Below are positions 2,890-43,265 of a stretch of DNA of 44,545 nucleotides, in pieces (position 1 is the first letter of the stretch; every line of letters starts with the position of its first letter). Origin of the DNA: Saprospiraceae bacterium (lineage in GTDB: Bacteria; Bacteroidota; Bacteroidia; Chitinophagales; Saprospiraceae). The notes beneath the pieces were generated by a model. It ran no database searches. It saw only the letters and a program-made list of their open reading frames with translations, and had not been told where the DNA came from. The stretch lies in NCBI GenBank assembly GCA_025056735.1, contig JANWVR010000030.1, forward strand, positions 1 through 44,545, in the 5' to 3' direction. The position numbers and the translations under genes are program-made.

Positions 2890-4914
2890 TTACAGGATGA
2901 CGAGCACTTTGCCGCTTTGTATTTCGCTACCGCGCCAGATGCGCAGGGTGTAGGCGCCGGGCGGTAGGTCGTTGACGGCCACAGGGTGTACGCCTGCGGG
3001 CAGCGCGCCTAAGTCGCGGGCGGCCCGGCCTTCGGCATTGTAGAGCGTTACTTTCGTGGCCTCGAAGGGCAGTTCCAGCGTAAAGCGTTCTTTGGCAGGG
3101 TTGGGGTAGTAGAGTGCGGGCTGTGTGGCCTTCACCGGGCTTTGCGGGTCGGGTTGTGTCTGAAAGGCTACGGGCGTTTTGCCGTCGTCGCAGTTGGGTG
3201 TGCTGACGTATTCGCCGATGACGCGCACGAGCAGGTCGTTGAGGAATTCTATTTTGTAAACGTCGGCAGTAGGCGCCAGATGCTTTCCGCCGATGCCCGA
3301 GTGGTCGGTCAGGAACAGGTAGGAGCCGTTGGTGGCCAGCCCGAAGAATTTCATCAGAAACTCGGTGTCTTTCTGGATGCCGCTGCAGGTGATGGGCACG
3401 ATGCGGATACCTCGGCGGGCGGCTTCGCGGATACTGCGCTGGAGGCTCTGAATGACTTCGGGCCGCTGGTGCGGGCTGGCGTCGAGCACCAAAAAGCAGA
3501 TGCGCGCCACAGCGTCGCGGCTCCAGGGCTGGCGCAGCGTTTCCTCCAGGGCGCTGTGTACGGCCTCGGGATAATCGCCGCCGCCGTCGGCGTATTGGCG
3601 GCTTATGTAGTCCACTGTTTTGGAAATGTCGCGGTTGAGGGCGCTGCTTTTGACCAAGTACTCGTCGCCTTCGTCGCGGTAAAAGACACTGCCCATGCGC
3701 AGGTCGAGGTCTGGGAAGCGCCTTTGCACGCGCCCGATGACGTCGAGCAGTTCGGTTTTCAGATAGTCAATTTCGTCGCCCATGCTGCCGGTGGCGTCCA
3801 CCGTCCAGACGATATCCACGGTGCGAGCGTGACGACATTCTCGTTTGATTTTGTGCAGGTTAATGCCGTTTTCAAACGGTTTGGGCGTGCCTAAGGCGTG
3901 CGTTTTGCCGTCCACATCGGCGACGACTTTGAGCGGCGCCTCGGCAGGCTTTTCTCCAAACAGGCTTTCCCATAGTTCGGCCTGTCCGGTGTTGGAGGTG
4001 CGGGCTTCCCAGAGGGTGGCGCCATGGCGGTCGAGCAGGCGCACGGGCACGTCGCTGAGCGGCATGCCGGCCTCGTTTTGCAGCAGCACAGAGTAGCGGC
4101 GTCGGGGGTAGAACTGGTAAGTTTTCTGGTGTTGCTCGATTTCGCCGTCGCGCAGCAAGTCCACCCAATGGGTGTTCCAGTTGTGCAGGTCGTTCCATTC
4201 GCCGGCGGTCAGCTGGCCGGCGCGGTCGGCGCCGGGCATTGGGCGGCGCGTGCGCGTGGGGCGGTCTGGGGGCGTCGGAGTAGTCGGTATGACAGCGGGT
4301 TGAGAAGCGCCCGCAGAGAGAGGCGCAGCGAGCTTGGCAGCAGGCACCACCAGCTCGCCAGACTCTTCGTCGGCAGATGAGGCCGGCGTTTCCACCGCTC
4401 GCATCATTACTCGGGCGTCTACGTCTCGGCGTCTCAGGGCCAGGGCGTCTTTTCGAGCGCGCCCGGTGTACATCTTTCGTTCCTCTCCAGACGGGGCAAG
4501 GACGGGGTTATGGCCCGTCGGCAGGTCGTCGTTTTGAAACAGCGCCGGCTGGTAACGCACCGTAACCGACTCTGTCAAACCGGGCAATGCGGGCTCGAGG
4601 GGCACAGTGCGCAGGTCTATCTTCCGGTCTTTGCTGACGGGTACATGCGTCAGGCGAAGGTGGGTAAATCCCTCGTGTACGATTTCTACAGTGTATGTTC
4701 CTGGCGAAACCTGGGCGCAGAACTTACCTTCGGCATCGGTTGCTAAGGAGGCGATGCGGGCTGTATCCTGCCAGACGTGCACCGTCGCCTTCGCTATCGG
4801 CTGGCCGTCGTTATCGGTGATGCGGGCACAAATTTGGGCGGCGTCGTTCCGGGCAAAATGCCAGTTGGCGCCGACGAATAACAGGAGGAGCAGGACTAAG
4901 GAAGCGTTTTTCAT
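2890..4914 (-). CDS. secreted VWA-domain protein with N-terminal carboxypeptidase-regulatory-like domain and T9SS sorting domain
   Basis: A 674-residue product. The ATG at 4914 is chosen because it starts a signal peptide (MKNASLVLLLLLFVGANWHFA); the upstream in-frame extension is not signal-like. Domains in order: a CnaB/carboxypeptidase-regulatory beta-sandwich about residues 28-110 (ARITDNDGQPIAKATVHVW), a low-complexity T/P/R linker to about 230, a second sandwich-like region about 275-345, a von Willebrand A domain about 365-565 with the MIDAS motif DATGSMGDE near residue 372, and a type A T9SS sorting domain in the last 75 residues (YYPNPAKERFTLEL, then GAYTLRIWRG). VWA domains with MIDAS bind metal and protein ligands, so a surface adhesion or binding role is plausible. 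The gap to the downstream PDZ gene is about 150 bp, so the two may be cotranscribed. Confidence 0.88.
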   Translation of the reverse strand: MKNASLVLLLLLFVGANWHFARNDAAQICARITDNDGQPIAKATVHVWQDTARIASLATDAEGKFCAQVSPGTYTVEIVHEGFTHLRLTHVPVSKDRKIDLRTVPLEPALPGLTESVTVRYQPALFQNDDLPTGHNPVLAPSGEERKMYTGRARKDALALRRRDVDARVMMRAVETPASSADEESGELVVPAAKLAAPLSAGASQPAVIPTTPTPPDRPTRTRRPMPGADRAGQLTAGEWNDLHNWNTHWVDLLRDGEIEQHQKTYQFYPRRRYSVLLQNEAGMPLSDVPVRLLDRHGATLWEARTSNTGQAELWESLFGEKPAEAPLKVVADVDGKTHALGTPKPFENGINLHKIKRECRHARTVDIVWTVDATGSMGDEIDYLKTELLDVIGRVQRRFPDLDLRMGSVFYRDEGDEYLVKSSALNRDISKTVDYISRQYADGGGDYPEAVHSALEETLRQPWSRDAVARICFLVLDASPHQRPEVIQSLQRSIREAARRGIRIVPITCSGIQKDTEFLMKFFGLATNGSYLFLTDHSGIGGKHLAPTADVYKIEFLNDLLVRVIGEYVSTPNCDDGKTPVAFQTQPDPQSPVKATQPALYYPNPAKERFTLELPFEATKVTLYNAEGRAARDLGALPAGVHPVAVNDLPPGAYTLRIWRGSEIQSGKVLVIL

Positions 4915-4986: not shown

Positions 4987-5916
4987 TTAACGCAGCAAGC
5001 GCTTGCCTATGCGCCATAGTAGCGACCACTCTTTTTGCACCCGGAAATAGGGCTGCGGCTGACCGCCCAGTTGGCGGCGCACGCGCTCGATAGCGGGCAG
5101 CATGCTGCCTAAAAAATCGAAGGTCGGCACGCGCAGCTCTTCTAAGGCGAAGCGCATGGCTTCCCAGGCCAGCAGGATGCCCGCGCCCGACGCGCGCAAG
5201 ACGGGGTCTTCGCCGGCCAACAGGTAATAGGCCGAGCGCTCGTCCCAGATGACGTAAGCCACAGCGTGCGGCGCACCCGTATCGCGGTCAATAGCCCAAA
5301 ACATTTCGCGGCAGCTCCGTGCGGCGAGTGCCTGGTCTAAACGCTCCAGCAGGGCCAACGAAAACGGCGCCCGCAACCCCTGGCGCTCATAGGAGCGGTT
5401 GTGTACCTCGTAAAAATACCGCAAGTCGCCCCCGCGGCGTATTTCCACCTGGGCTGCCGCTTTGGGCAGTTTGCCGTTGCGGTAGTCGGGCGCCAGATTG
5501 GCCCGCAACAAAGCCAGATTGGTGAGCGCCACTGTGTAAGAGTAGCGCGTCGTCTGCCGAAAGCCCGCCCAATAGAACGGAAGCCAGTTGGCGGCAGTGT
5601 AATGAAAGTCCTGTTCAAAGGCCGCTAACGGCGGTAAATCCGCAACTAATGCGCGCAACAGCGGCATTTCACGCCGCACCGAGCGATATTCAGGCAGCAC
5701 ATACGGCCCCATGAAGCGGCATAGCAGCGGCATGGCCACGTATTGCCAGTGGAATTTCTTTTTGATAAAAAACGGCAACACCCCCACTACCTCATTGCCG
5801 TGGTAAGCCAGCGCCGCTGACCAATGCCCTGGGCCACAAACAGCGTCCAAATAGTAAGGCCTCAAAAAAACAGGCAAGTCGGGCGCTTTTTCAGCAAAAT
5901 GGAAGTAAGGAAGCAC
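4987..5916 (-). CDS. GNAT-family acetyltransferase (FemAB/BioF2-like)
   Basis: About 309 residues if started at GTG 5916, the last start codon outside the repeat array. The frame stays open back to 6150, but those 78 extra residues are a translation of heptamer repeats (HFPL/TFHF strings), so they are unlikely to be native. The N-terminal part (LPVFLRPYYLDAVCG, then VGVLPFFIKKK and MPLLCRFMGPYVLPEY) and the C-terminal part (YEVHNRSYERQG, then AVAYVIWDERSAYYLLAGED and ILLAWEAMRFA) match the double-GNAT arrangement of Acetyltransf_6/FemAB-like enzymes that transfer acyl or aminoacyl groups to amino sugars, lipids or peptides. The substrate is not evident. The repeat element ends 2 bp upstream of the chosen start, so the original promoter and perhaps the original start may have been displaced. 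Confidence 0.75.
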   Translation of the reverse strand: MLPYFHFAEKAPDLPVFLRPYYLDAVCGPGHWSAALAYHGNEVVGVLPFFIKKKFHWQYVAMPLLCRFMGPYVLPEYRSVRREMPLLRALVADLPPLAAFEQDFHYTAANWLPFYWAGFRQTTRYSYTVALTNLALLRANLAPDYRNGKLPKAAAQVEIRRGGDLRYFYEVHNRSYERQGLRAPFSLALLERLDQALAARSCREMFWAIDRDTGAPHAVAYVIWDERSAYYLLAGEDPVLRASGAGILLAWEAMRFALEELRVPTFDFLGSMLPAIERVRRQLGGQPQPYFRVQKEWSLLWRIGKRLLR

Positions 5917-5918
5917 GG

Positions 5919-5936
5919 AATTAAAAGTGAAAAGTG
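5919..5936 (+). repeat. left inverted copy of an 18-bp end repeat
   Basis: AATTAAAAGTGAAAAGTG occurs here on the plus strand and again, exactly, on the minus strand at 6455-6472. The two copies bracket the four-helix-bundle gene in inverted orientation. The sequence is low in complexity, so coincidence cannot be fully excluded. Confidence 0.6.
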
Positions 5937-6035
5937 GAAAGTGGAAAGTGGAAAGTGGAAAGTGGAAAGTGAAAAGTGGAAAATGAAAAATGAAAAATGG
6001 AAAGTGGAAAGTAGAAATTATAAAGTGAAAAATTG
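5924..6035 (+). repeat. heptanucleotide tandem array, 16 units, consensus AAAGTGG
   Basis: The stretch divides without gaps into 16 consecutive 7-mers: AAAGTGG (seven copies), AAAGTGA, AAAATGA, AAAATGG and a few diverged units (AAAGTAG, AAATTAT, AAAATTG) at the right end. Two more heptamers (AAAATTA, AAAATGG) lie near 6056-6069. A 7-nt unit shifts reading frame on copy-number change. Comparable heptamer arrays (STRR sequences) are known from heterocystous cyanobacteria. Confidence 0.9.
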
Positions 6036-6083
6036 GGGGTGTTGGCGAAGAATTAAAAATTAAAAATGGAGGGTGTGTCGGCA

Positions 6084-6443
6084 CTATGGCTTTTGATTCT
6101 TTTTGGCCGTTTTCAATGTAGCGACCAGCATGGCTATCAGTTCTTTGCATTCGGCGTTTAGGAGGTCGAAGGTCTTTTGATCTATGTAATCGGTGTCTTT
6201 TAAGATAGAGAGCCAGTACTCGGTCTCGCTGGCTTCTTTTAGGGCAATTCCCATTTTATGGATAAAATCGGCCTTGCTGTGCCCAAATTCAGCCTCGCGG
6301 ATTAGCGCGCCGATGGCGGTTCCACTTCGCAAAACTTGCCTACTCAACACAAACTCCCTTTTGTCCATCTGCAGATGATGCGACATTTTCACGATCCGGA
6401 TGGCAAAGGCATAACTCCTGTCCTTCAATGGGTTATCCTTCAT
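6084..6443 (-). CDS. four-helix-bundle protein (S23/IVS-encoded and Avd-like family)
   Basis: A 119-residue, mostly helical protein. The hallmark motifs of the TIGR02436/S23 family are present: KDRSYAFAIRIVKM in helix 1, LSRQVLRSGTAIGALIREAEFG between helices 1 and 2, DFIHKMGIALKEASETEYWLSIL across helices 2 and 3, and a final helix ending LVATLKTAKKNQKP. Relatives are encoded in intervening sequences of 23S rRNA genes (Leptospira and others), and the fold is shared with Avd, the accessory protein of diversity-generating retroelements; both are basic and bind nucleic acid. Neither 23S rRNA nor a reverse transcriptase is present here. The ATG at 6443 lies inside a heptamer repeat unit (AAAATGA on the minus strand), so the repeat supplies the start codon. 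A longer in-frame start at 6536 would run into the Omp85 gene and translate the repeats, so I rejected it. Confidence 0.85.
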   Translation of the reverse strand: MKDNPLKDRSYAFAIRIVKMSHHLQMDKREFVLSRQVLRSGTAIGALIREAEFGHSKADFIHKMGIALKEASETEYWLSILKDTDYIDQKTFDLLNAECKELIAMLVATLKTAKKNQKP

Positions 6444-6472
6444 TTTTAATTTTTCACTTTTCACTTTTAATT
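6441..6472 (-). repeat. heptamer array (4 units) at the four-helix-bundle gene start
   Basis: On the minus strand the sequence reads AAAGTGA, AAAGTGA, AAAATTA, AAAATGA, in phase with the same heptamer code as the array at 5924-6035. The outer 18 bp (6455-6472) are the exact inverted copy of 5919-5936. The last unit contains the ATG of the four-helix-bundle gene. Confidence 0.75.
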
Positions 6473-6475
6473 TCT

Positions 6476-7921
6476 TCAAAATCCCGAGTTGTAATTCACA
6501 TAAAATCCGCCTCCGCCGGTACTTCGCCAGCTCCACTCAAAGCGGATGACGGAGTTGTAGAAGAGGACGAGGTGCAGGCCGAAGCCGTATCCGCGCAGCA
6601 GGCGGTTGTTCAGCGGGTTTTCGGCGGCGAAGAAGGGGTCGTTGGCGTAGCCTGTGTCGTGGTGCAGCGCCAGGAACGCCCGGACGGGGAGGTGTTTGGC
6701 GAAGGGTATCCATTTGCCTATGTACAGGTATTCGTCCAAGAGTCGGAGGCGGAGGGTTGTCCGTTGCAGGCCGAAGTCTAAGCCGTCCACGACGAAGAAC
6801 TCGTATCCGCGCAGGACGTCGTTTCCGTAGCCTAAGGCCTGGTTGTTGTGGAAGGGCGGTTGGCGGCGTGGCGCACTGAGGCGCGCTTTGGCGGTGAGTT
6901 CGAGGCTCCAGCGGCGGCCCCAGGAGCGGTAGTAGCGCGCTTCGGCCGACAGGCGCAGCAGGTGCAGGTCGTCGGAGGGGAGCAGGCCGTTTTGGCGAAG
7001 TTCTAAGGCGACTAACCAGCCTTTGAGCGGGTAGGGGCGGGCATCGCGCAGGTCGGTAACGAGGCGATAGAGGGCGCTGAAGTGGCGCTGTTGGGTACGG
7101 CCTTGCCCAAAAAAGTGGGGGTTAAGTTCGTAGGCTACCGTATCGCCCACGCGGTTGTGGTGGTATTCCACGATGAAAGAGTGCGTTGTCAGCAGCCCGC
7201 GTCGCCAGTTTAGGGCTAAGTGCGCATATAGGCGTTGGCGCAGCCACAGGTCAGGGTCAGTAATGAATTGCTGGCGATTATTGCGAGTGATGTACTGCAC
7301 TTCGTGGTTGCGGCTGAAGCCCACAGCAGCACGGAAGCCCAGCGTCTGGCGGCGGTTGAACCACGGGCGCTCGTAGGAGGCTTCGTAGCGGTTGGTGTAG
7401 CCAAAGTTCAGGTTCACTTTCAGAACATCGGCGCGGCCGCTTAGGTTGAGGTGTGCAGAGCTGATGCCATAATTGACGCGCTTCAGTGAGTGGTTGAAAT
7501 CTGTCCACCAGACGTTAAAGTTGCGGTCGGCCAGTTCAAAGAGCGGGATAGGGTAGAGGTACCACATCTCCTTGAGCCACAGGCGTACGGCTAAGCGGTC
7601 GCCAGGCTCGAGCGTTTCTATTTGAATGGTCGAATGGGCAAACAGGCTGGTGTTCATCACGCGCAGGCGATTGCGTTCTAATGTCTCTGCCAGCGTGGCT
7701 AAGTCCAGCGTGTCGCCTGCCCGAAACTCCAGCTCGCGCAGGATGAGCTCCGGGCGTGTGCGCTTATTGCCTTCCAAGATGATGGTGTCAATACGCACCC
7801 CAATGCGCTCGCCGTTGGCGCTCTGGGCGCACGCTGGCGGCGTCTCCCATACTCCCCAAAGCAGCCAAACGGCCCAGGCAATTCCCCTCATCATTTTGGG
7901 GTAAAGCATTACCCTCACCAT
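6476..7921 (-). CDS. Omp85-family outer-membrane protein with one POTRA domain (BamA/TamA-like)
   Basis: About 481 residues from ATG 7921, with an N-terminal signal segment (GIAWAVWLLWGVWETPPACAQS); ATGs at 7909, 7894 and 7891 are possible alternatives. Residues about 35-115 form a single POTRA-like domain (RIDTIILEGNKRTRPELILRELEF, RAGDTLDLATLAETLERNRLRVMNTSLF). The rest is a 16-strand-type surface-antigen barrel with alternating aromatic strands, a late GYGNDVLRGYEFFVVDG segment that fits the conserved lid-loop region of Omp85 barrels (usually RGY), and a C-terminal strand ending in F. Length and single POTRA separate it from BamA (five POTRAs). Such short Omp85 proteins in Bacteroidota have no settled substrate; export or insertion of outer-membrane proteins or lipids is likely. 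Its stop lies 3 bp outside the repeat element. Confidence 0.85.
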   Translation of the reverse strand: MVRVMLYPKMMRGIAWAVWLLWGVWETPPACAQSANGERIGVRIDTIILEGNKRTRPELILRELEFRAGDTLDLATLAETLERNRLRVMNTSLFAHSTIQIETLEPGDRLAVRLWLKEMWYLYPIPLFELADRNFNVWWTDFNHSLKRVNYGISSAHLNLSGRADVLKVNLNFGYTNRYEASYERPWFNRRQTLGFRAAVGFSRNHEVQYITRNNRQQFITDPDLWLRQRLYAHLALNWRRGLLTTHSFIVEYHHNRVGDTVAYELNPHFFGQGRTQQRHFSALYRLVTDLRDARPYPLKGWLVALELRQNGLLPSDDLHLLRLSAEARYYRSWGRRWSLELTAKARLSAPRRQPPFHNNQALGYGNDVLRGYEFFVVDGLDFGLQRTTLRLRLLDEYLYIGKWIPFAKHLPVRAFLALHHDTGYANDPFFAAENPLNNRLLRGYGFGLHLVLFYNSVIRFEWSWRSTGGGGFYVNYNSGF

Positions 7922-8291
7922 CGAAGTCTGTTTTTTCGCATAAACGCCCACGTTATGGCGAAAGATGCAGTCCTTTCAGTTGGTTCCCGATGTGCCTGAA
8001 TAGGCTTTGTCGCCACCAATAGTAGGAGCAGTACTGAATACGCAAAAGTTTAGTCGCCGGTTTTCATGGCACGGGCCCGAGAGTATGCACACTTGTGCTC
8101 ACTCTGGCCCTGTACCGAATAATTGCTCTCACGCAGGTTCGTTGCCCCTTGATAGGGAGGCACTTTTCGATAAAAATGGTCCTTCTCCCAGCGCTTTTCT
8201 GCGTCCTATGTGAGCCGAGACACAATAGATTACCGCAGGAGACCGCGGTCACCGGAAGTTCTCGGCCCATAGGAACAGCATGCGGATAGAC
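7922..8291. other. 370-bp intergenic region without a recognisable gene
   Basis: Between the start of the Omp85 gene and the stop of the lipoprotein gene, both on the minus strand. It must hold the promoter of the Omp85 gene, but I see no clean -7 motif. Short open frames exist on both strands, but none has protein-like composition or recognisable motifs. No tRNA or clear terminator hairpin was seen. Confidence 0.5.
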
Positions 8292-35353: not shown

Positions 35354-35408
35354 CTCGGAATTGCACGCCGGGAAAAGCTCACTGCTGCAGCAGGCGTGCA
35401 ATTCCGAG
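35354..35408 (+). repeat. perfect 16-bp inverted repeat between gldM and gldN
   Basis: CTCGGAATTGCACGCC (35354-35369) and GGCGTGCAATTCCGAG (35393-35408) are exact complements with a 23-nt loop. No T-run follows, so this is not a standard terminator. In the mRNA it would form a very stable hairpin 13 nt after the gldM stop and about 50 nt before the gldN start, where it could set the GldM:GldN ratio by attenuation, processing or 3'-end protection. Confidence 0.9.
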
Positions 35409-41142: not shown

Positions 41143-41188
41143 CTACGCTACTTCAGGCCCTCCAACGCGAACAGACGAAACTTTTCGT

Positions 41189-41230
41189 TTTCCATTTTTA
41201 ATTTTTCACTTTCCATTTTTAATTTTTCAT
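41189..41230 (-). repeat. heptamer repeat, two 21-bp units, overlapping the subtilase start codon
   Basis: Two direct copies of a 21-bp unit (41189-41209 and 41210-41230) differ only in the last base. On the minus strand the units read AAAATTA, AAAATGG, AAAGTGA, the same heptamer code as at 5924-6035 and 6441-6472. The second copy ends inside the ATG at 41229-41231. Confidence 0.85.
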
Positions 41231-43265
41231 GTATAAAGTCCGATTCGGAGGTAAAAAAGGCAAAAAAGGTCAGACACTTCAGCTCGAGGAGAGCCCTGAT
41301 CTGCTCGTCGTGCGCACCAAAGGCAACCGCCAGTTAGAGGAAGCATCGCTCAAGCGCGAAAGCTTGGAAGTGCTTAAGGAAACCCAGGAGATTGCTGCCT
41401 TCCCTGAAGCTGGCGTTAGCGTGCGCCGCGTGAGCGCTGACGACAACCCTGTGGCCAAACGCGACGAAGCCCGTGCTATACTCAAACAGGATGAAAATAT
41501 CCGTTTTGCCGGGCGCGTCTTCCAGGACGCGGAAAGCGGAAATGTCGTGCTGTACACCGAGAACTTTTTCGTCAAGTTCCACGACAACGTACCACCCGAA
41601 ACCTGTCAGGTGCTCTTAGACAGATACCGACTGAGCGTCAAAAGTCAGTTGCCCTTTGCGCCTAATGCCTATTTCGTACAGGCTGCAGAAGGCACGGGAA
41701 CCAAGGTGTTTGAGATCGCTGAGCAGCTGCTCGCCGAAAAAGAAGTGGAGTACTGCCATCCTGAATTGGTACAAGAACGCCGCTTCAAGGGCGCGCATCC
41801 GCTTCAATGGCATTTAGTCCAGACGAGCGTCAACGGCAACCTGATCAACCAGCATGTCAACATCGAGGGCGCCTGGCGGCACACGCGCGGAAAAGGCATC
41901 ACCATCGCTATTCTCGACGACGGCTTGGATACCTCCCATCCCGAATTCGCAGGCCGCATCGTACACCCCTATGACGCCACGCTCAACATCACCGACCCCT
42001 CGCCTAAGCTGCCCGACGACAACCACGGTACCGCCTGTGCTGGCGTGGCCTGCGCCACTGGCCTGCCCAACGGCGCCAGCGGCTCAGCGCCCGAAGCCAA
42101 CCTCATGCCCATACGCTTGCGCAGCGGCCTGGGCAGCATGGCCGAGGCCAACGCCTTCGTCTGGGCCGCCGACCACGGCGCCGACGTCATCTCCTGCTCC
42201 TGGGGACCCTCCGACGGCGACTGGTGGAACCCCATGGACCCTCTCCACAACCGCGTGACGCCGCTGCCCGACAGCACGCGCCTCGCCATGGAATACGCCC
42301 TGACCAAAGGCCGCAACGGCAAAGGCTGCGTCATCCTCTTCGCCGCCGGCAACGGCAATGAGTCGGCCGATAACGACGGCTACGTCAGCTTCCCTCCCGT
42401 CATCACCGTAGGCGCCTGCAACGATACGGGCAAACGCTGCGTGTACAGCGACTTCGGCAAATGCCTCTGGGTCTGCTTCCCCAGCGCCGACTATGGCTGG
42501 CGTCCCTTCCAGCACCCTGCTCCGCTGACGGAAGGTCTGCGCACCACCGACCGGCAGGGCCCCGCTGGTTACACTCCCGACGGCTACGTCAACTCCTTCG
42601 GCGGCACCTCCGCTGCCTGTCCGGGCATGGCCGGCGTGGTGGCCCTTATGCTGGCCGTCAATCCGCAGCTGACGCCCTCGCAGGTGAAGGACATCATCCG
42701 CCGCTCCTGCACCCGCATTGATGAGGCCGGCGGCGAGTACGACACCAACGGCCACAGCATCTACTACGGCTATGGCCGCATCAACGCTGGCCTGGCTGTC
42801 GAAAATGCCCGGAAAGCCGCAGCCATCACCCATCCGGTTACTGGTGTTCGCGTCGAGGGTGTGGCCCGCTTCCACACCGGCGGCGAAGTCCCCTTTCTGT
42901 CAGGCGTGATGGTGGGCGAGACCTTCATGCCATCACGTCGCCTGCTGGGTCTGCGTCTGCAACTGCGCGGCGCGCCCACCGGCTCGCGCCTCCGTTACCG
43001 CATCAACGGCTCCTCCGTCGGTATCCGCGAAAATGCGCGCGAAGGTGAATACGTGGGCGAAGCCTCCGTCAGCCGCCGCCTCTTGGGTGTCGCTCTGTGG
43101 TTAGAAGGCCCCGCCGCCCAACAGTACGACCTCCACTACGCCGTTCGCCTCCAGGGGCGAAAAACACCCGTGCAGGCCAAAAACGGCGCCTGGGCCGGAA
43201 CAGATGCACCCACTGGTCGCTCCATAGAAGCCCTCCAGGTGTGGCTCACGCCCAAAAGTGCGTAG
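41229..43265 (+). CDS. S8 subtilisin-like protease without signal peptide, with ChW-like C-terminal region
   Basis: A 678-residue product starting at ATG 41229. The N-terminal MYKVRFGGKKGKKGQTLQLEESPDLLVVRTKG is not a signal peptide; residues 1-210 look like a fervidolysin-type prodomain (VLYTENFFVKFHDNVPPETCQVLLDRY, then VEYCHPELVQERR). The catalytic domain, about 215-515, has Asp230 (AILDDGLDTSHPEF), His266 (DNHGTACAGV), Asn375 (AAGN) and Ser461 (GGTSAACPG), all intact. The last 150 residues hold up to three ChW-like repeats (VARFHTGGEVPFLSG, LRYRINGSSVGIRENAREG, VRLQGRKTPVQAKNGAWAGTD ending RSIEALQVWL), without the typical tryptophans. It may act inside the cell or be exported by another route. 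It lies just before a type III CRISPR gene. Confidence 0.9.
   Translation: MYKVRFGGKKGKKGQTLQLEESPDLLVVRTKGNRQLEEASLKRESLEVLKETQEIAAFPEAGVSVRRVSADDNPVAKRDEARAILKQDENIRFAGRVFQDAESGNVVLYTENFFVKFHDNVPPETCQVLLDRYRLSVKSQLPFAPNAYFVQAAEGTGTKVFEIAEQLLAEKEVEYCHPELVQERRFKGAHPLQWHLVQTSVNGNLINQHVNIEGAWRHTRGKGITIAILDDGLDTSHPEFAGRIVHPYDATLNITDPSPKLPDDNHGTACAGVACATGLPNGASGSAPEANLMPIRLRSGLGSMAEANAFVWAADHGADVISCSWGPSDGDWWNPMDPLHNRVTPLPDSTRLAMEYALTKGRNGKGCVILFAAGNGNESADNDGYVSFPPVITVGACNDTGKRCVYSDFGKCLWVCFPSADYGWRPFQHPAPLTEGLRTTDRQGPAGYTPDGYVNSFGGTSAACPGMAGVVALMLAVNPQLTPSQVKDIIRRSCTRIDEAGGEYDTNGHSIYYGYGRINAGLAVENARKAAAITHPVTGVRVEGVARFHTGGEVPFLSGVMVGETFMPSRRLLGLRLQLRGAPTGSRLRYRINGSSVGIRENAREGEYVGEASVSRRLLGVALWLEGPAAQQYDLHYAVRLQGRKTPVQAKNGAWAGTDAPTGRSIEALQVWLTPKSA

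Follow-up and report, generated by a model that had tools for sequence, protein, structure and literature searches.

Inverted heptamer arrays around a four-helix-bundle gene: a probable compact mobile element in a Saprospiraceae bacterium

The window analysed in this study is a stretch of 44,545 nt from a Saprospiraceae bacterium. It contains an element of approximately 0.55 kb (5919-6472), in which a gene for a four-helix-bundle (4HB) protein lies between inverted arrays of AAARTGR heptamers, and whose outer ends form an exact 18-bp inverted repeat (Table 1). These ends had been described in an earlier note on this DNA, together with a second, oppositely oriented short array and the placement of the whole unit between two unrelated genes, and each of these observations was reproduced: the right array contains about 4-5 units, and the co-oriented neighbours encode a GNAT-type acetyltransferase and an Omp85/POTRA protein. 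The 16 units counted for the left array were a fair estimate; TRF detected 13.4 copies of AAAGTGG at 5924-6017 (90% matches, score 132), and the run continues to 6031, giving 109 nt or about 15.6 units. The proposal that the repeat itself supplies the start codon was upheld in part: the likely ATG (6443-6441) lies within the repeat-like AAAAATGA, but an in-frame GTG farther upstream may be an alternative start. For the GNAT gene, a 387-aa ORF starting at 6150 had been listed; it crosses the element in antisense and was corrected, as the GNAT homology to sister genes begins near 5907. Within the window, inverted 15-mer pairs no more than 1500 nt apart were found only at the element ends and at one unrelated spot near 35354. 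The window also holds a gene-less array, directly upstream of a subtilase gene.

Table 1. Features of the element and its surroundings, in window positions
Feature	Position	Strand
Left outer arm, 18-bp exact inverted repeat	5919..5936	+
Left heptamer array (AAAGTGG/AAAGTGA/AAAATGA, ~15 units), downstream of the 4HB gene on its coding strand	5923..6031	+
AATTAAA-type units (two to three), between the left array and the gene	6050..6067	+
4HB gene, 119 aa, TIGR02436 / PF05635 (23S rRNA-intervening sequence protein family)	6084..6443	-
Right heptamer array (minus-strand AAAGTGA, AAAATTA, AAAATGA types), overlaps the likely start codon	6439..6473	-
Right outer arm, 18-bp exact inverted repeat	6455..6472	-
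Omp85/POTRA neighbour; one side of the insertion site	6476..7951	-
GNAT-type acetyltransferase neighbour; other side of the insertion site	4987..5919	-
Gene-less array, heptamer family as in the element, lipid A acyltransferase-like / subtilase intergene	41182..41239	-

The proposed assignment of the protein to the TIGR02436 type was borne out at 107 bits against a cut-off of 24, and PF05635 was matched at 92 bits (cut-off 33.8). An AlphaFold2 model built from an alignment of 42 sequences had a pLDDT of 95, and the predicted structure matched the S23-family structures 2rld (TM 0.90) and 2gsc. Q36, E50, and E73 were invariant in the 42 aligned sequences and 98-99% conserved in 139. The S23p of Xanthomonas is described as a homopentameric ring (cited in PMC4990558, excerpts). 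The model also resembled the four-helix bundle Avd of diversity-generating retroelements (4dwl), at a TM of 0.77 with 11% identity and a weak Foldseek E of 0.14; unlike such a retroelement, the window contig carries no reverse transcriptase gene. Mobilisation of the element by a reverse transcriptase, in which the 4HB protein would serve as accessory factor in the manner of Avd, is very unlikely. The predicted Avd-like fold and the one RVT_1 gene in the own genome (G000:C106) would suit such an arrangement, but in this genome, the only one considered for this purpose, that gene is on contig C106 and the window on C60.

The earlier note had proposed a comparison of empty sites at the GNAT/Omp85 junction, and such sites are present in sister genomes. 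The junction was readable at 17 same-genus loci besides the window. It was empty in the sisters G035, G002, G011, and G019 (L183-L186), with a gap of 29-47 nt including the GNAT start, and the gap was 14-20 nt in the more distant L192 and L207. The window junction, at about 556 nt compared with 47 nt in a sister, represents a replacement, and it lacks a counterpart to the first 15 or so codons of GNAT in the nearest sisters. No target-site duplication, which together with a matching transposase would mark an IS-derived MITE, was visible by eye at this junction or at the Nostoc junctions described below. By this comparison the window element is an inserted unit. Its earlier description as a possible novel small element was apt in that the unit is inserted and ends in inverted arrays, and understated in that the architecture occurs in many phyla (see below).

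Some other same-genus junctions were occupied differently. Paired inverted arrays of other units were present in L190, L201, and L205, one-sided CTCTCAC-type arrays in L197 and L199, and a hairpin with a short heptamer run in L195; none of these six loci gave a 4HB match with the 139 query proteins. L188, L189, L190, L204, and L205 contain a putative methyltransferase-like gene at the junction, and L200 and L208 have other spacers.

Insertion inside a host gene was seen on three Nostoc plasmids (L328-L330), in which an element lies within a gene for a DNA cytosine methyltransferase; this gene is intact in L338-L341. In L330, 466 nt comprising both arrays and the 4HB gene replace 328 nt of the methyltransferase gene, and the left break is at CAATTCGAC, which resembles the unit CAATTCG of this element. 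The three plasmids probably reflect one event, because they share the gene order. Since the replacement shows no visible duplication of the target, we infer that recombination or repair is a likelier route than a classical transposase.

The survey set comprised 151 loci (the window and 150 relatives), whose 300-nt flanks were compared; 12 loci with less than 150 nt on one side were dropped, leaving 139 to be scored, and 400 of 752 control windows were used. At a score of at least 14, an inverted repeat between the flanks was found at 107 of the 139 4HB loci, against 7 of 400 among the control windows and 19 of 411 when flanks were mispaired. A chance origin of the repeat was ruled out by this survey and by the rarity of 15-mer pairs in the window. 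Direct flank repeats reached the same score at 30 of 139 loci. Insertion of a 4HB gene into a single pre-existing array was also rejected, since it would leave direct flanks and the flanks are inverted. Lag-7 periodicity was observed upstream at 64 and downstream at 57 of the 139 loci (7/400 and 8/400 in the controls), and period 8 was observed at 9 and 8 loci, respectively. The repeat unit differs by locus, examples being AAAGTGA, GACGGTG, AGCAGGC, AATGGTG, and AGTTGAC. On the coding strand, G exceeded C in the upstream arm at 98 of the 107 loci, with the reverse at 6 and ties at 3.

A qualifying inverted repeat was absent from 32 of the 139 loci, including L062, the top match of the search that gave 80 loci. 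These 80 loci were found partly through repeat-encoded peptides (GILKKLKV, EKLKMKDN), which introduces a bias; in the HMM-found set alone, inverted repeats were present at 48 of 65 loci. The plasmid set and the set from the order of G100 were gathered without using repeats. Inverted flank repeats were detected at all 16 plasmid loci fetched from 27 records, a count made without control windows; the hosts were mainly cyanobacteria, plus Treponema, Bernardetia, and Chlorohelix, and at five loci (L322, L333-L336) direct repeats outscored the inverted ones. In the order of G100, inverted flank repeats were found at 27 of 30 4HB loci and 1 of 54 control windows. Of these 30 loci, 14 carried GGGA-type units as read by eye, GGGACTC, GGGACCG, and GGGATTC among them, and a strict tandem GGGNATN test was positive at 1 of 30. 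Phage records gave two matches. Taken as a sequence pattern, the inverted-array architecture of 4HB genes is present in many phyla.

Protein identity correlated with array similarity (r = 0.38, 5604 pairs, 0/2000 permutations) after exclusion of 67 pairs with extended DNA homology. The correlation was also seen across phyla (r = 0.40, 2287 pairs, 0/2000 permutations), where phylum labels were taken from record titles and unlabelled loci were counted as Bacteroidota, and in the HMM-found set alone (r = 0.295, 0/2000 permutations). For stretches outside the element, the correlation with protein identity was r = 0.00. Four GACGGTG loci from four genomes showed mutual protein identities of 57-70%, against medians of 20-25% to all. 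In 23 same-genome 4HB pairs with unlike units, array similarity was 0-0.17, and 21 of these pairs were at most 47% identical. Low array similarity despite high protein identity was seen in the same-genome pair L046/L147 (82% identical, array similarity 0.06) and in the pair L047/L143 (62%, 0.08). In the HMM-found set, 0 of 16 pairs above 60% identity reached an array similarity of 0.3. On these alignments, the repeat unit tends to vary with the 4HB subfamily, if loosely. Part of the correlation needs no recognition, because gene and flanks are inherited together.

These data bear on the idea that the arrays are host-driven simple repeats, arising by slippage or in quadruplex-prone DNA, among which 4HB genes just sit or insert. 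Heptamer repeats have been reported with no link to 4HB genes in the excerpts of two papers (PMC4692102, PMC4679880), and in the own genome gene-less array sites outnumber the 4HB gene. However, inverted flanks (107/139) are far commoner than direct ones (30/139), several 4HB genes with unlike units occur in one genome, and the array type tracks the protein subfamily between distant hosts, so that a purely host-driven origin seems improbable.

Arrays away from 4HB genes were counted in 42 same-genus genomes. AAARTGR array matches numbered 300 in the own genome (G000) and 240 in G012, followed by 16, 11, and 8, with 0-4 in the rest, and G000 and G012 were the only two of the 42 genomes with a relative of the window protein at 60% identity or more. 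These two hosts are far apart, as their Omp85 proteins are only 43% identical. No 4HB gene was found in G002 and G035, which gave 16 and 11 matches. The reversed pattern gave 233 matches against 240 in G012, 70 against 300 in G000, and, at 2 mismatches, 150 against 413 in G000; this control is unsound for AAARTGR, as AGTGAAA arrays also match, and the between-genome comparison was relied on. GGACGGT arrays (at least 12 matches) were present in 7 of 9 genomes with a relative of L164 at 60% or more and in 4 of the remaining 33 (Fisher p = 4e-4, the thresholds having been chosen after the data were seen and 2 of the 9 relatives recognised via fragments), and the reversed control totalled 1. G040, G017, G041, and G010 carry GGACGGT arrays, and no L164 relative at 60% or more was found in them. 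G009 and G007 have L164 relatives and 1 GGACGGT match each; in G009, GGAGGGT arrays, one base off GGACGGT, occur both at its 4HB gene and elsewhere. This evidence is stronger than the pairwise correlation, because it concerns arrays away from the 4HB gene; overall, the data strongly indicate that protein and repeat are linked.

The own genome contains at least 35 perfect-match array sites, the window's included, against one 4HB gene. Repeats occurring independently of 4HB genes had been named beforehand as evidence against the element, and taken literally such repeats are what this genome contains; these arrays carry the heptamer of the resident protein, which is scarce in most relatives without such a protein. 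Most of 13 array sites viewed in the own genome look one-sided and lie near gene ends. At L005 (G000:C2), an AAARTGR array is followed after about 100 nt by an inverted TCATTCA-type array, forming a hybrid pair. In G012, arrays paired heads-in were found at 16 of 18 fetched sites outside 4HB genes (score at least 22), and the two remaining sites were weak (15.5) and unpaired (9), respectively. The first eight of these sites (L302-L309) were chosen because both strands were listed; of the other ten, eight were paired at 22 or more. None of the 18 sites encodes a 4HB protein. Several of them start with TTTTTTAGTGA or finish with TCACTAAAA, as does the right end of the 4HB copy L320. L303, L307, L308, L315, and L316 share an internal motif around CTCTACGACGGGC adjoining one array, perhaps a further recognition site. 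In four array-free 4.4-kb junction loci, the best inverted repeats scored 11-18.5, and scores near 15 over long stretches therefore mean little. Array sampling, a weak test, covered 260 kb of the own genome including the window, where only the window's arrays were detected, and 400 kb each of G035, with one weak array, and G009, with seven arrays of period 7 or 8. In G009, L257 and L252 carry period-8 arrays (GTTTGAGG and GGGGTTGA types) alongside period-7 arrays.

The gene-less arrays look like non-autonomous forms, driven, as it seems, by the copy that carries the 4HB gene. An autonomous/non-autonomous system fits because the gene-less arrays share the heptamer of the resident protein, which is near-absent in most relatives without it. 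The earlier suggestion of a non-autonomous element would suit the gene-less arrays better than the copy in the window.

The protein family and the complementary ends recall the 23S rRNA intervening sequences (IVS) of Coxiella and other bacteria, which contain an S23p/4HB ORF and are suspected to be selfish or mobile (excerpts of PMC4990558). The window element is likewise a short element with a 4HB ORF and stem-capable ends, exact over 18 bp. On the other hand, it lies outside rRNA, next to the Omp85 and GNAT genes, and it differs in its tandem heptamer ends, in a unit that varies by locus, and in dispersed gene-less arrays with the element's unit. The Rfam scan of the window gave no match, which ruled out an IVS in the strict sense. 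A stand-alone IVS relative could still act at the RNA level, with the arrays pairing in the operon mRNA, RNase III cutting the stem, the 4HB protein binding array RNA for autoregulation or protection, and the whole spreading passively. Such a mode is suggested by the protein family and terminal complementarity shared with the Coxiella IVS (excerpts of PMC4990558), by the fold of the element RNA (z = -2.68, 1/100 shuffles as good), by the co-orientation of the flanking genes, and by the similar fold of Avd, a component of solved ribonucleoproteins of diversity-generating retroelements. However, the z-score is modest, many of the arrays lack a gene or have only one side, and the dozens of arrays dispersed through a genome are not explained by RNA processing alone; we regard this mode as unlikely.

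The repeats of REPIN-RAYT systems are REP palindromes, unlike the tandem arrays found here. A resemblance lies in the combination of few genes with many dispersed matching short repeats (excerpts of PMC3116915). Dispersed inverted elements that match the flanks of the 4HB gene are clear in G012, but the sites viewed in the own genome look mostly one-sided. The own genome gave 0 matches to the Y1 tyrosine transposase (PF01797), the only transposase family scanned, and RAYT-driven mobility in this genome was ruled out on this ground. The GGGNATC and GGGGA(C/T)T heptamer repeats of Xanthomonas and Nostoc were taken by their authors as G-quadruplex elements, and the Xanthomonas repeats are heterogeneous, (GGGANTN)n, with convergent pairs frequent (excerpts of PMC4692102). 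These repeats are intergenic heptamer arrays, as here, and the units GGGACTC and GGGATTC from the order of G100 fit (GGGANTN)n; "helix bundle" and "S23" have 0 occurrences in the text of that paper. The TAACTGA repeats of Beggiatoaceae, proposed to be translational control sites, are similar in that dispersed heptamer direct repeats are common to unrelated phyla (excerpts of PMC4679880), and "S23" and "intervening" have 0 occurrences in the text of PMC4679880. Each part was already known on its own: IVS encoding S23p, heptamer repeats from several phyla, and systems that combine a gene with dispersed repeats. No paper linking 4HB genes with heptamer arrays was found in the open-licence literature, although one may exist elsewhere. 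The element lacks a defining feature of each of IVS, REPIN-RAYT, and diversity-generating retroelements.

The window locus is probably a selfish, mobile element of small size, with heads-in inverted arrays around a single 4HB gene, a protein that recognises the element's own heptamer, and many gene-less copies. Comparison of the loci provides the architecture, the insertion between or inside host genes, the linkage of protein and unit, and the gene-less arrays accompanying a matching protein. In our working model, each subunit of a 4HB protein ring would recognise one heptamer of the protein's own type, on a purine-rich DNA or RNA strand. TRAP, likewise a ring protein, recognises triplets spaced along an RNA; by analogy, a ring with a heptamer per subunit would account for the fixed 7-nt step and the free sequence. 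Since a purine-rich array is 5' on each strand, either strand, or a transcript, would offer a site. The protein would act in trans on the gene-less arrays, promoting their spread and upkeep. Copying and insertion would presumably depend on host recombination, repair, or reverse-transcription activity, because the element has no other gene.

4HB/S23p genes are widespread, with no explained function, and mobility of their IVS forms is a long-standing suspicion; heptamer repeats, too, are common and unexplained. The link gives both a testable function, namely a protein that would read a 7-nt word, and nature offers many pairs of protein and word for decoding. If such recognition is true, the protein is a very small nucleic-acid reader and the element a new kind of mobile element. 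Such elements may help to explain the heptamer repeats of many bacterial genomes, and IVS may be members of the heptamer-bracketed 4HB class. A wider proposal, to which we give somewhat less than an even chance, is a bacteria-wide selfish class without its own transposase, whose subfamilies read their own heptamers and amplify both the gene and gene-less arrays. Much of the heptamer load, the G-rich Xanthomonas and Nostoc repeats among it, would then be explained, and 23S IVS would be members that landed in rRNA.

A blastn comparison of the 151 loci for recent copies picked out no clean jump. L101 and L136, on two contigs of one gammaproteobacterial MAG, contain 4HB copies that share 87% identity across 496 nt surrounding the gene, possibly a recent duplication. 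In L064, L065, and L073 (around 4000-4400), the element apparently occupies one shared efflux-operon junction, the flanks being alike by eye. At the plasmid loci L333-L337, 4HB genes lie within defence-like gene sets. The arrangements cas2-4HB-cas1, csx2-4HB-cas1, and drmD-4HB-MmeI were each seen once, and a DUF1156-4HB-Swt1/HEPN set was seen twice, in Chloroflexota and in a cyanobacterium.
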